From a virus, in IMG/VR virus record IMGVR_UViG_3300042923_000281, positions 124,001 through 188,000 of that record: a stretch of DNA of 64,000 nt. The stretch is one strand, 5' to 3'. Numbering within the stretch: position 1 is the stretch's first letter; the number at the start of each line of letters is the position of its first letter. The notes below the pieces were generated by a model, which did not search any database, was not told the DNA's origin, and saw nothing but the letters and a program-made list of their open reading frames with translations. This document shows positions 6,561 through 45,675 of the stretch, piece after piece. Position numbers and translations under genes: made by a program.

Positions 6561-7019
6561 CTAACTCACTTTCAGGTTTACCATCAGGCGATCGAGTCGG
6601 ATAGCTCGACGCCCTTGGGTAGGATCGCCTCGAACAATGTCGACACTTTGAATAATGGGGTAGGGTGAGGTCAATTGACTGTTATCCAGTCGGTCTCCGC
6701 CATTCCAGAGGACCTTCCCATGTAATACCCACTTTTCATTTTCTTTCACCAGCGCCGATACCTCGAACAGACCGATCTGGCGAGGCTTGAGCTTGCGGTA
6801 GAACTCACCGATGGGTTCATCACCCCAGTCGCGCTTCGGCCAGTTCATGTAGATCGGCATAAAGTCAACCGGCACCAACTCACCAGCGCTTTCGTCGCAG
6901 ATCCCCATGCCATCTGGGAGGCCGATGCTGACGTTACGGTTGTGAGCAGGAGCATTTGCGAATACATCGGCTGCATCGAAGATCGTGATCTCCCTGAACA
7001 GCTGTATTTGTCCCGTCAT
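6561..7019 (-). CDS. Hypothetical protein
   Basis: A 152-residue protein beginning MTGQIQLFREITIF. It alternates short hydrophobic strands with Pro/Gly/Asp loops, suggesting a compact beta-rich fold. There is no signal peptide and no recognised motif. Its ATG overlaps the stop of 7016-7366 by four bases and the ligase gene follows after about ten bases, so it belongs to the ligase operon. Confidence 0.8.
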   Translation of the reverse strand: MTGQIQLFREITIFDAADVFANAPAHNRNVSIGLPDGMGICDESAGELVPVDFMPIYMNWPKRDWGDEPIGEFYRKLKPRQIGLFEVSALVKENEKWVLHGKVLWNGGDRLDNSQLTSPYPIIQSVDIVRGDPTQGRRAIRLDRLMVNLKVS

Positions 7020-7366
7020 TTGATGTCTCTAGGGTTGAGGCACAAGTAGTCCGTCTCGCAAGTCTCCTTGATCTCTTTCAGGAGCGCCGTACGGGCCTTC
7101 TTAGCTTTAAGAGGGTACTCGAACAACCGGATCTCAGCATCCTTGGAGTAAAGCCCGTTAAGGAGCTTACAGGGATGCTTACCGATGGCGAGTAGGGAAA
7201 GTTGTTTGTCTACTTCAGATGAAACGGTCTCGCTTTGGCCCAGATAGAAACGCCCAGTCGCTACATGCTCTAACATGTAGCAACCTTGGTTAGTGGTATC
7301 GCTTCGTTTACTGCGGCCCGAGGAGGAGTGTAGCCATTTGACAACATTCACCAGGGCGTCAGTCAT
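7016..7366 (-). CDS. Degenerate GIY-YIG-like domain protein
   Basis: A 116-residue protein. GCY at residues 28-30 and FYLG at 40-43 have the spacing of the GIY...YIG signature (first Tyr to second Tyr, 11 residues). They are followed by a helix, a GKHPCKLLN segment, Glu in LLKEIKE near 98-101, and Asn111, as in GIY-YIG nucleases. The Arg expected in the helix after YIG is not visible, so catalysis is doubtful. Known family members cut DNA in homing, restriction or repair. Here a DNA-binding or inactive descendant is as likely as a nuclease. It overlaps both neighbours, in the ligase operon. Confidence 0.55.
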   Translation of the reverse strand: MTDALVNVVKWLHSSSGRSKRSDTTNQGCYMLEHVATGRFYLGQSETVSSEVDKQLSLLAIGKHPCKLLNGLYSKDAEIRLFEYPLKAKKARTALLKEIKETCETDYLCLNPRDIK

Positions 7367-40269: not shown

Positions 40270-41895
40270 TTACACAGCTACCGGCATGTCCTTGGTAAGG
40301 GCCGGGTGGCTGTCGTAGTCGATGATCTCGAGGTCACTGATCTTGAAGCCGTCGATCGATTTGATCTCAGGGTTCAGTTTCAGACGAGGGATGCAGTCCT
40401 TCGATTCCAGTGTCAACTGGTGTTCGAGGGCTTGCACGTGGTTGGTGTACACGTGAGCGTCCACAGCAGCCCACACCAGCTCCAATGGAGCCATGTCGAC
40501 ACACTGGGCGATCATGTGGGTCAGCGTCGCGTACTGAGCCACGTTGAACGGTTGGCCGAGACCGAGATCGTTCGAGCGCAGCAACAGGAAGCAGTACAGA
40601 CCACGACGATGGATACCGGCTTCATCCAGACGACGGTGCATCTCTTCATCAGAGACCAACGTTTGAGCCTGATAATGAGTCCAGTCAGTCCAGGTGCGCA
40701 GTGCCATGTCCATCATGCCAGTCTGACGCTGTTTCTTCTCGAGGTCGTACTTGGCCAGCTCGACCTGATCCTGAGCGATCATGACACGCTGCTCCAGAGT
40801 CAACTCATGAGAGATGAACTGGAAGTACAGGTGGCACGGTGGCAGAGCCGCCTTCCATGTCAGCGCTGGGTTCCAGGCAGACACGATGATACGACGGCTG
40901 TTCGGATCGTGTTTCAGGAGCTGGATCGCATTGACCAGTTGGTCGATTTCACGGTGCACGATAAAGCGAGGCACATCAGCAATGACCGTGAAGATCTTGC
41001 GCAAGCCTTCATCGTTGTGATAACGCGCCCACAGCGTACCGCCATCGTTGTAGACGTCGTAGCCCTTATCGCCTACTTCGTCGAACGACACCTTCACGAC
41101 ATCAGTGCGTACGTAGCCTTTCTCACTGGCTACCTTGTCCAGTTCAGCCAGCAAGGCGGCTTCACCTTGTGGCAGACCCACTGGAGCGATCTCACCACGG
41201 TAGGTATAACCCTGTTGGTAGTACTCGTGCAGGCCAGTCTGGGACACGATTTGGGTGTCTTGCCAGTGACGCCACTGTGGACCATAGCCGCCTGGACCAA
41301 TGTCACCATCGACCAGTACCCGCAGAGCAATACCCAGTTCAACCGCGATGTAGTTGATGATCGCCTCGACACTGGCGAACTCGGCGGTACTGCCGTAGAC
41401 AGCCACCGTCTTCTTCAGGCTTTCCTTCAGCGTGATCTTGACGACGCACTTGCCGTAGGTGTTGATCCCCTTGCCTTCCTGGATCTTGGCCAGATTGTCA
41501 GGCGTGGTGATGTTGACCGTGCCTTCATCGCCATCGAACTTGCGAGTGATGAGGTGAACGAGTTCTTCAAGGTCACGGATGTGGTACCTGCCCGAACCCG
41601 GGATCAACCAGCTGTTCCAGATACCGATCTTCTGGTCACGCAGTTCCTTGATGCTGGAACTACCCCCACAGAACCAGAGCATCTCGCGCTCAGCGGTGTC
41701 CTGCATGCCTTTGGTAGTCAGGCGAGGAGAACGCTTGTTCAGGAGGCTGTAACGAGCCAGACGCCCGACCACGGCGTGAGTGCCTGTGCCAGTACGGTCA
41801 CCCTTGAAGTTACCGTTGTGCAGCACGTCTTCGATCAGGTTGTGGTACTGATCATCGGTGGGGGTCAGACGAGTGTTAACTACGAATGGACTCAT
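40270..41895 (-). CDS. thyA: Thymidylate synthase, expanded with insertions
   Basis: A 541-residue protein, about twice the usual 264. It makes dTMP from dUMP with methylene-tetrahydrofolate. Conserved blocks in order: GDRTGTGT (32-39), EMLWFCGG (71-78), GIWNSW (91-96), GDIGPGGYGPQW (197-208), SRRIIVSAWNP (333-343), catalytic Cys354 in PPCHLYFQF, LRSNDLGLGQPFN (439-451) and DAHVYTNH (479-486). Three long inserts, about 100-195, 225-310 and 361-430, separate them. Asn451 is the residue that marks preference for uracil. The start at 41895 has AAGGA; a nearby upstream ATG does not. Whether it methylates or hydroxymethylates is undecided. Confidence 0.9.
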   Translation of the reverse strand: MSPFVVNTRLTPTDDQYHNLIEDVLHNGNFKGDRTGTGTHAVVGRLARYSLLNKRSPRLTTKGMQDTAEREMLWFCGGSSSIKELRDQKIGIWNSWLIPGSGRYHIRDLEELVHLITRKFDGDEGTVNITTPDNLAKIQEGKGINTYGKCVVKITLKESLKKTVAVYGSTAEFASVEAIINYIAVELGIALRVLVDGDIGPGGYGPQWRHWQDTQIVSQTGLHEYYQQGYTYRGEIAPVGLPQGEAALLAELDKVASEKGYVRTDVVKVSFDEVGDKGYDVYNDGGTLWARYHNDEGLRKIFTVIADVPRFIVHREIDQLVNAIQLLKHDPNSRRIIVSAWNPALTWKAALPPCHLYFQFISHELTLEQRVMIAQDQVELAKYDLEKKQRQTGMMDMALRTWTDWTHYQAQTLVSDEEMHRRLDEAGIHRRGLYCFLLLRSNDLGLGQPFNVAQYATLTHMIAQCVDMAPLELVWAAVDAHVYTNHVQALEHQLTLESKDCIPRLKLNPEIKSIDGFKISDLEIIDYDSHPALTKDMPVAV

Positions 41896-42061
41896 GAACA
41901 ACATCCTTGAGAACGGAGAGGATAGTGCTTTGATGGCGCTTCATCTTTGCACTGATGAATTTACGGTGGGCGACTTTACGCTTCATCGACCAGTTGTTGT
42001 TGACCTTGGGGTATTCCTTCTGGATCACCTCAGCCAAGTTGATGGTACGGGTCTCGATCAT
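41876..42061 (-). CDS. Small basic hypothetical protein
   Basis: A 61-residue protein starting MIETRTINLAEVIQKEYPKV. The centre is very basic (WSMKRKVAHRKFISAKMKRHQS). Start and stop both overlap neighbours (ATGA with 42058-42537; about 20 bases with thyA), the normal pattern in this operon. Nucleic-acid binding is plausible. Confidence 0.7.
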   Translation of the reverse strand: MIETRTINLAEVIQKEYPKVNNNWSMKRKVAHRKFISAKMKRHQSTILSVLKDVVHESIRS

Positions 42062-44115: not shown

Positions 44116-44778
44116 TTAGGCAGCGCGTGTAACGATACCAGCACGCACGCCATGGAAGGATTCGCCCAACTTGAAGTTGGTGTAGAACGGCACGCCCTTG
44201 TACGAGTTCTCGACCGAGTCCACACAATGGATCGGACGGGTGAACCGTGCAAACTCGAACGCCGTCAGGTCGAACCGCTGTTGAGCAGTCAGGTCCTTGT
44301 AGGCAATCGGGGTCAGGACGGACGGCATGCTGCGCAATGCAATATCGACCGACTCGTCAGCTTCCTCTCCTAAGCTGAGCGTGTCGAGCCAATACATTTC
44401 GCGGCACGAGATCTGACTCACCGCACGATGACGGTTGAGCGCCGAAGAGATCTCATGGGCGGACAGAAGGGAAATGAACATCAGATCACCCGCCTTCATG
44501 TAGTTGATGGATTCACCCCGAATCTCATCGACTTCGCCCATCGCTTTGAACAAAGGATTCCATGTACCGGAAGTCCGGATGCGGAACGGTCTCGCTTTGC
44601 GCTCACTGAAGAGGGCTTGGACCGGTGTTGGCACTTTCCGCACATTGTCGCCAATCACGAAGAACTCTTTAACGTTCGGCATGCGCTGGATCAGGTTGGC
44701 AGCTTCCTCGTAGGAAGTCACAAACACGATGGCGTGGCCGAGCAGGGTCAACGGGTTGGCGTTATCTTGAGTTTTCAT
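44116..44778 (-). CDS. Hypothetical protein
   Basis: A 220-residue protein starting MKTQDNANPLTLLGHAIVFV. It has a Rossmann-like beginning (HAIVFVTSYEEAANLIQRM...EFFVIGDNVRKV) and a helical remainder. It could be a small nucleotide-binding domain, but no active-site motif is visible. It is the last gene before a strong terminator. Confidence 0.77.
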   Translation of the reverse strand: MKTQDNANPLTLLGHAIVFVTSYEEAANLIQRMPNVKEFFVIGDNVRKVPTPVQALFSERKARPFRIRTSGTWNPLFKAMGEVDEIRGESINYMKAGDLMFISLLSAHEISSALNRHRAVSQISCREMYWLDTLSLGEEADESVDIALRSMPSVLTPIAYKDLTAQQRFDLTAFEFARFTRPIHCVDSVENSYKGVPFYTNFKLGESFHGVRAGIVTRAA

Positions 44779-44823: not shown

Positions 44824-45129
44824 TTATTCGTCACCCAAAGAGACGGGGTCTAGAGAGCAGGACATGTGGATGTTGCGCATGAACTTGATGGCATTGTCTG
44901 CCTCCCAAGCACTGGCCCCAACGTCACGAATCTCGAGGCGAATGAGCAGCTGTGTGAGCCGTACATTCACTTCTTCGGTGACAACCGGGATGAAACGCAA
45001 CTGAATGGACTTCATGATCCGCCATAGCGGTTTCATCTCACTCAATGCCACATAGGACTTGACCTTCTCAAGCTCGTTGGTGAATTGCTCCAGCTTGGAA
45101 AAGGTGTCGTACCAGGTTTGTTCGATCAT
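44824..45129 (-). CDS. Small helical hypothetical protein
   Basis: A 101-residue protein starting MIEQTWYDTFSKLEQFTNELEKV. Nearly all helical with possible coiled-coil heptads. It follows the SspB-like gene after seven bases and precedes 44116-44778. Function unknown; the close spacing suggests co-expression with the adaptor. Confidence 0.75.
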   Translation of the reverse strand: MIEQTWYDTFSKLEQFTNELEKVKSYVALSEMKPLWRIMKSIQLRFIPVVTEEVNVRLTQLLIRLEIRDVGASAWEADNAIKFMRNIHMSCSLDPVSLGDE

Positions 45130-45136
45130 TGTGTCC

Positions 45137-45619
45137 TCATGACCTTCTTTTGGCTACGAGTTGCAGTTCATCCTGCCCAGGCTGGGCATGCATCTCGGCG
45201 TCGGCAGCCTTTTGGGCTCTCTCGGCCAACTCGTGCTCGTTGCGAAAGCGTGACGCAGGCGGGTAAATCACCGGCGGTATGCTAATAATGTTCATGTGCC
45301 CATCTTCAGTCAGCACCCCACCGCTGTTAGCAGCGATCACCGCCTTGATGGCGTTGTACGGAATGCTCATGACGTGAGCGAGGTTATCAAACTTGACAGC
45401 GATGATCAGTTCAGCCTCATCGAAGTCCAGTTGGGTGGTGAAGCCAGGAGCAACGCACACGATGAAGTCGCCGCCGTCCTGTTTCAATGACGCTAGGACT
45501 CCGTCCTTCAGAACGGTGTTGTCCACAATGAGGCAAGCCTGTACCGAACGCTCATTGAAGTAATCAATGGACGCTCGGATCAAGTGCTTACTCCAGAGTG
45601 ACACGGGAGTGCGATCCAT
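45137..45619 (-). CDS. sspB: SspB-like ClpXP adaptor
   Basis: A 160-residue protein, the length of bacterial SspB (about 165). SspB carries ssrA-tagged proteins to the ClpXP protease. The core, residues 11-104, follows SspB block by block: KHLIRASIDYFNERSV, ACLIVDNTVLKDGVL, DGGDFIVCVAPGFTTQL, ELIIAVKFDNLAHVMSIPYNAIKAVIAANSGG. After a charged linker the C-terminus LQLVAKRRS resembles the ClpX-binding XB peptide (L-R-V-V-K type). Start at 45619; a TTG two codons upstream is unlikely. A phage copy could redirect host proteolysis or compete with the host adaptor. Confidence 0.78.
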   Translation of the reverse strand: MDRTPVSLWSKHLIRASIDYFNERSVQACLIVDNTVLKDGVLASLKQDGGDFIVCVAPGFTTQLDFDEAELIIAVKFDNLAHVMSIPYNAIKAVIAANSGGVLTEDGHMNIISIPPVIYPPASRFRNEHELAERAQKAADAEMHAQPGQDELQLVAKRRS

Positions 45620-45675
45620 AGACAAATACCTAAGGTTGCTTTATTGGAGTATTGCCATAAGATCACACTCCTACA

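Follow-up and report, generated by a model that had tools for sequence, protein, structure and literature searches.

Does this phage carry its own adaptor for a protease of its host, and if so, which proteins might such an adaptor deliver? The question is raised by one open reading frame in the window, the 64,000-nucleotide stretch of DNA analysed here (bases 124001–188000 of a 277-kb IMG/VR virus record), whose product had been likened, in an earlier sequence-only reading, to SspB, which in bacteria hands other proteins over to the ClpXP protease.

The gene and its kinship with SspB

The open reading frame lies at 45137–45619 on the minus strand (no strand had been given before), with an ATG at 45619 and a stop codon at 45137–45139, and encodes a protein of 160 residues (P0001). 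A TTG at 45625, two codons upstream, is a possible alternative start, but the ATG and the residues MDRTP are conserved in all relatives. The reading frame is real: orthologues are found in four related phages at 71–93% identity, namely Pseudomonas phage pPa_SNUABM_DT01 (DT01; 71–72%, annotated hypothetical) and three other IMG/VR contigs of about 276 kb (93, 86 and 76%). No relatives were found in genome_contigs with patterns drawn from this family. The phage also encodes a homologue of chimallin, the phiKZ nuclear shell protein (G000:243041–244837, E=4.7e-20), and therefore belongs with the nucleus-forming jumbo phages, of Pseudomonas type. It thus shows both features of phiKZ232-type SspB-like genes: a chimallin-encoding genome, and a place for the gene ahead of a same-strand thymidylate synthase.

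Searches with the single sequence point to a distant relationship. Five NCBIfam SspB models match at E≤1e-3, the best at E=3.5e-6; its 27 bits fall short of the equivalog cut-off of the PRK11798 models (e.g. 191 bits), so that the phage protein is not filed as an SspB equivalog. The Pfam SspB model (PF04386) matches with E=0.03 and 14.7 bits, below its gathering score of 27 bits, and a KDPG aldolase model in Pfam scores about the same; the protein is therefore a distant homologue rather than a curated member of PF04386. PHROG 8945, ‘SspB-like’, matches at E=1.4e-3, and all ten PDB entries retrieved by sequence at E≤10 are SspB, the best with E=0.008.

Profile comparison gives a clearer result. 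A family profile of five orthologues (residues 1–112) was aligned by hhalign with six SspB sets: bacterial, phiKZ-type whole, phiKZ-type core, pooled, Klebsiella/Moabite-type and second copies. Bacterial SspB is matched with a score of 39.3 (P=3.9e-6) and residues 1–100 colinear, against at most 17.5 for 60 column shuffles and 10.7 for the reversed family. The phiKZ-type cores score 34.2 (shuffles ≤19.4), and the whole phiKZ-type set is also matched; the pooled bacterial and phage set reaches 57.2 (P=1e-9), a single comparison controlled by the reversed family only (13.3). The Klebsiella/Moabite-type phage set (score 16) and the second-copy proteins (9–15) are not matched significantly. Homology over the SspB core, on which membership of the PF04386 superfamily turns, is thus found by hhalign (39 for bacterial SspB, 57 for the wider set) and by Foldseek, and the block-by-block resemblance claimed in the sequence-only reading extends over residues 1–100, above the shuffle and reversal controls.

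The SspB-fold core spans residues 8–101 (45317–45598, minus strand), on the evidence of hhalign, of Foldseek against the PDB and of an AlphaFold model whose alignment included SspB rows; it is predicted to form a helix at residues 8–23 followed mostly by beta strands. With the four near relatives alone, AlphaFold failed (pLDDT 38); a model given phage and bacterial SspB rows reached a moderate mean pLDDT of 67.5, with block means of 55–86 over residues 11–100, and the presence of these rows means that the model is not independent of SspB but biased toward it. The comparison of profile and model with SspB that had been proposed earlier nevertheless yields a match, with the same proviso for the model: Foldseek returned 13 PDB matches at E≤1e-3, all SspB (E 4e-6 to 2.5e-5) and including 8et3, a ClpXP delivery complex, while ranks 14–19 are taken by the Caulobacter SspB orthologue and Agrobacterium AGR_C_3712. 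Among viral models, the matches include SspB-like proteins of Noxifer, Psa21, Phabio, PA7 (a phiKZ232 homologue), PhiPA3 and 201phi2-1. Across the five genomes the core is under purifying selection (pN/pS 0.17). The protein is a diverged SspB homologue.

The C-terminal tail and the putative substrate groove

Following a variable linker, the protein ends ELQLVAKRRS. The C-terminal L-x-L-V-x-K peptide described earlier is indeed present, as LQLVAK at residues 152–157 (45149–45166, minus strand), a putative XB-like docking peptide for the ClpX zinc-binding domain. In E. coli, the tail peptide of SspB (XB) binds the zinc-binding domain of ClpX and directs degradation (PMC12373786), and SspB without its ClpX-binding sequence loses its stimulation (PMC7804408). 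The phage tail, LQLV-A/V-K/R as against the canonical LRVVK, is conserved under selection: LQLV is invariant in the five genomes despite synonymous changes in all four of its codons, and pN/pS is 0.087 over residues 151–156 (uncorrected counts from six codons only) compared with 0.30 in the preceding linker. The ribosome-binding site of the next gene does not explain this invariance, since that gene starts 7 nt past the stop codon and an overlap would involve the last codons only. These observations, together with comparable tails in other phages, support the reading of the tail as putatively of the ClpX-docking type.

Of 20 further SspB-like proteins collected from phages, 14 show the pattern [LF]-x-[VLI]-[VI] near the C-terminus. 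These tails include LTVIKGGKK (phiKZ and PS119XW), LTVVK (RAY), LRVVK (pf16), LKVVK and LRVVK (second copies), LTLIQGGKK, LRVIQGGKA (D6 and its close relative L125), LTVIQGGKA, FSVIKGGKE with two similar tails, and FGLIQGGKE; the pattern is absent from Noxifer gp300, LucasX 196, Vibrio D69 65, L124, and gp347 and gp349 of 201phi2-1. Within the sampled phage loci it is carried by 9/13 SspB-like proteins and 4/262 other open reading frames (Fisher p=2e-11), a descriptive figure: the pattern was settled after the tails had been seen, SspB-like rows were assigned by hand, the DT01 orthologue is among the 13 and relatedness is ignored. Separately, Xanthomonas phage LucasX encodes LUCX_191 (L119:1037–1744), which was not picked up as SspB-like, ends in the XB-like RPRPQLSIVR and sits five genes before SspB-like LUCX_196; it is possibly a second ClpX-docking protein.

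The core has changed in a segment that may matter for cargo. NIAPRAVGN of E. coli SspB, which we take to line the substrate groove, aligns with CVAPGFTTQ in the phage protein, and many other phage SspB-like proteins retain more of it. This divergence makes delivery of ssrA-tagged protein doubtful, and makes it likely either that the cargo is another protein or that the phage protein acts as a decoy; judged from the alignment, the protein probably has a preferred cargo that is not just ssrA-tagged protein. The genome stretches scanned, which leave a 4-kb gap at 120001–124000, show no ssrA-like tag motif, and the window contains no tmRNA or Rfam family. The SspB mutations R73Q and A58V used in optogenetics were set aside as evidence, because the residue numbering could not be mapped securely.

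Genomic context and other phage loci

The next gene, at 44824–45129 on the minus strand, starts 7 nt past the SspB-like stop codon and encodes a 101-residue protein (56% identical in DT01) that was found in this phage group only and resembles none of the known families. The sequence-only reading had called it an unknown partner: adjacency and the lack of a known family hold, while the word partner draws on gene order alone. DT01 apart, the gene was not found in other phages with SspB-like genes. Next downstream, at 44116–44778 (minus strand), is a gene for a 220-residue protein of no known family, 60% identical in DT01.

About 3.2 kb downstream of the SspB-like gene lies a thymidylate synthase gene (40270–41904, minus strand; Pfam PF00303, E=7.5e-72). 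Its match is split, residues 19–366 covering profile positions 2–157 only, which indicates an insertion of roughly 190 residues. The same arrangement, an SspB-like gene followed further downstream by thymidylate synthase on that strand, recurs across distant Pseudomonas jumbo phages, in phiKZ, PS119XW, 201phi2-1, Noxifer and DT01, and this synteny suggests that the gene probably occupies an old locus; the tree is too weak to prove that the genes so linked are orthologous. A more extensive shared order with phiKZ and Klebsiella phages, SspB followed by proteins of about 100 and about 220 residues, was dropped: the neighbours compared by blastp are dissimilar, and only the thymidylate synthase synteny was kept.

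Upstream of the gene, TGATCTTATG (45656–45665, minus strand) is identical in five genomes and contains TATG, the core of the phiKZ late promoter (PMC10612078). The upstream regions of genes in this genome show no enrichment of TATG, and the late-promoter reading of TGATCTTATG was rejected on that ground; the early operon proposed from the sequence finds no support here either.

Some of these phages carry a second SspB-like gene, at L005:1315–1830 in DT01 and L009:1363–1836 in G002, with the canonical tails LKVVK or LRVVK. It stands between the counterparts of two window genes, 7016–7366 and 6561–7019, which overlap here at 7016–7019 (minus strand); it is absent from the window genome, and no second match was found in G001. 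The DT01 copy, PA10_00271 (‘putative ClpXP protease specificity-enhancing factor’, tail LKVVK), immediately follows a gene that bears the annotation GIY-YIG homing endonuclease. The second copy branches, in a tree, together with the SspB of enterobacterial jumbo phages (support 86/90, on long branches), a placement that hints that it was transferred and did not arise by duplication.

Other loci deserve mention in their own right. In Psa21-type phages (L031:6431–7795; D6, L033; RVTF4, L034) the second gene downstream of the SspB-like gene encodes an AAA ATPase, which is annotated as FtsH-like or, in RVTF4, as a respiratory complex III assembly protein; it is conceivable that the two form an adaptor–unfoldase pair. 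Erwinia phage PhiEaH1 has a gene annotated as an HslV-family peptidase (L121:3689–4252) 0.8 kb downstream of its SspB-like gene. In 201phi2-1, gp349 (L138:7880–8278; 132 residues) follows two genes after SspB-like gp347 and lacks a docking tail; it probably corresponds to a viral model that the SspB-like model also matched, weakly (E=8e-3).

Proposed function and comparison with known systems

Taken together, the core and the tail suggest, with somewhat better than even confidence, that this phage protein is an adaptor to the ClpXP protease of the host, which would dock on ClpX and deliver chosen proteins. Such an adaptor would be anchored to host ClpX by its tail, in the cytoplasm that surrounds the phage nucleus, and would use its core to hold selected host or phage proteins for degradation by ClpXP. 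The protease would be that of the host, given that searches of G000, its two relatives and DT01 gave no match to ClpP, to proteasome/HslV or to the zinc domain of ClpX, and retention of a ClpX-docking-type tail suggests that the phage probably steers the destruction of proteins by its host. As to location, Erwinia phage RAY gp39 is reported to be cytoplasmic (PMC10299810); PHIKZ232 co-fractionated with the phage shell and was also one of six overexpressed constructs, most of which appeared diffuse outside it (PMC10449902).

Against an adaptor role, the basic residue of LQLV-A/V-K/R is shifted by one relative to LRVVK, and further basic residues follow. The main rival, which we consider unlikely, is a decoy that sits on the ClpX zinc-binding domain, or pairs with host SspB in mixed dimers, and thereby blocks host SspB and other adaptors; phage proteins would then be shielded from ClpXP and no cargo delivered. 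Conservation of the tail alongside a diverged putative groove segment would fit this, and for the SspB of pf16 docking has led to the proposal of a competitive role (PMC5587285), but a pure competitor needs little beyond the tail, whereas here the core is under purifying selection as well. Somewhat less likely again is an SspB-fold peptide binder with no role at ClpX, acting with another partner such as the adjacent 101-residue product or another AAA+ machine. The non-canonical tail, the 7-nt spacing of the neighbouring gene and the AAA ATPase two genes downstream in Psa21, D6 and RVTF4 speak for it; the retention of LQLV through silent codon turnover speaks against it, as does the restricted occurrence of the 101-residue gene. 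That the resemblance to SspB arose by chance, without kinship, is very improbable: the low-scoring single-sequence Pfam match, about equalled by KDPG aldolase, is outweighed by the controlled profile match, the structure search and the conservation of the tail.

The adaptor reading can be extended, with more doubt than confidence, to a wider proposal in which re-targeted ClpXP adaptors, in some genomes two of them, are carried by nucleus-forming jumbo phages; these adaptors would have kept the docking tail but given up ssrA recognition in favour of dedicated targets in the host, defence or transcription proteins for example. Were this so, the cytoplasm outside the phage nucleus would be edited by host proteolysis. 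The tail pattern, present in most SspB-like proteins of these phages, joins scattered annotations into one hypothesis, and a diverged branch in which core and tail are both under selection offers a good test of whether host ClpXP is reprogrammed by jumbo phages, and for which cargo.

This kind of gene is already known in phages; what is new here is a strongly diverged member. Phage SspB-like proteins have been reported in pf16 (gp18; 2017, PMC5587285) and RAY (gp39; 2023, PMC10299810), and SspB-like names stand in the records of 201phi2-1, Moabite, Bobae, Churi and others, as in PHROG 8945. In the literature found, such proteins are annotated, modelled or localised, with no degradation function reported. 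RAY gp39, a putative SspB-like ClpXP adaptor, and pf16 gp18 share tails of this kind (PTLTVVK and PTLRVVK) but are closer to cellular SspB, E. coli SspB being 53% identical to the pf16 protein and 31% to that of RAY. Cellular SspB (E. coli, H. influenzae), the ClpXP specificity-enhancing factor, has the same fold, order of elements and arrangement of core, linker and C-terminal docking peptide; it differs in sequence (about 20–23% identity; NIAPRAVGN against CVAPGFTTQ, and LRVVK against LQLVAKRRS), and the phage gene is not adjacent to sspA. PHIKZ232 and 201phi2-1 gp347, the latter annotated ‘SspB domain-containing protein, similar to phiKZ gp232’, likewise have an SspB-type core and a same-strand thymidylate synthase downstream, but they are longer (302 and 373 residues), with long stretches between core and C-terminus; the phiKZ232-type profile is about 15% identical to the present protein, and PHIKZ232 has an XB-like tail, PKLTVIKGGKK, whereas gp347 ends EWLQVHEGGLK, outside the pattern. 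Closest of all is the DT01 orthologue PA10_00227 (QTH80425.1, hypothetical; 71–72%), which has the same neighbours and the tail LQLVVRRS, and differs in that DT01 carries the additional SspB-like PA10_00271.
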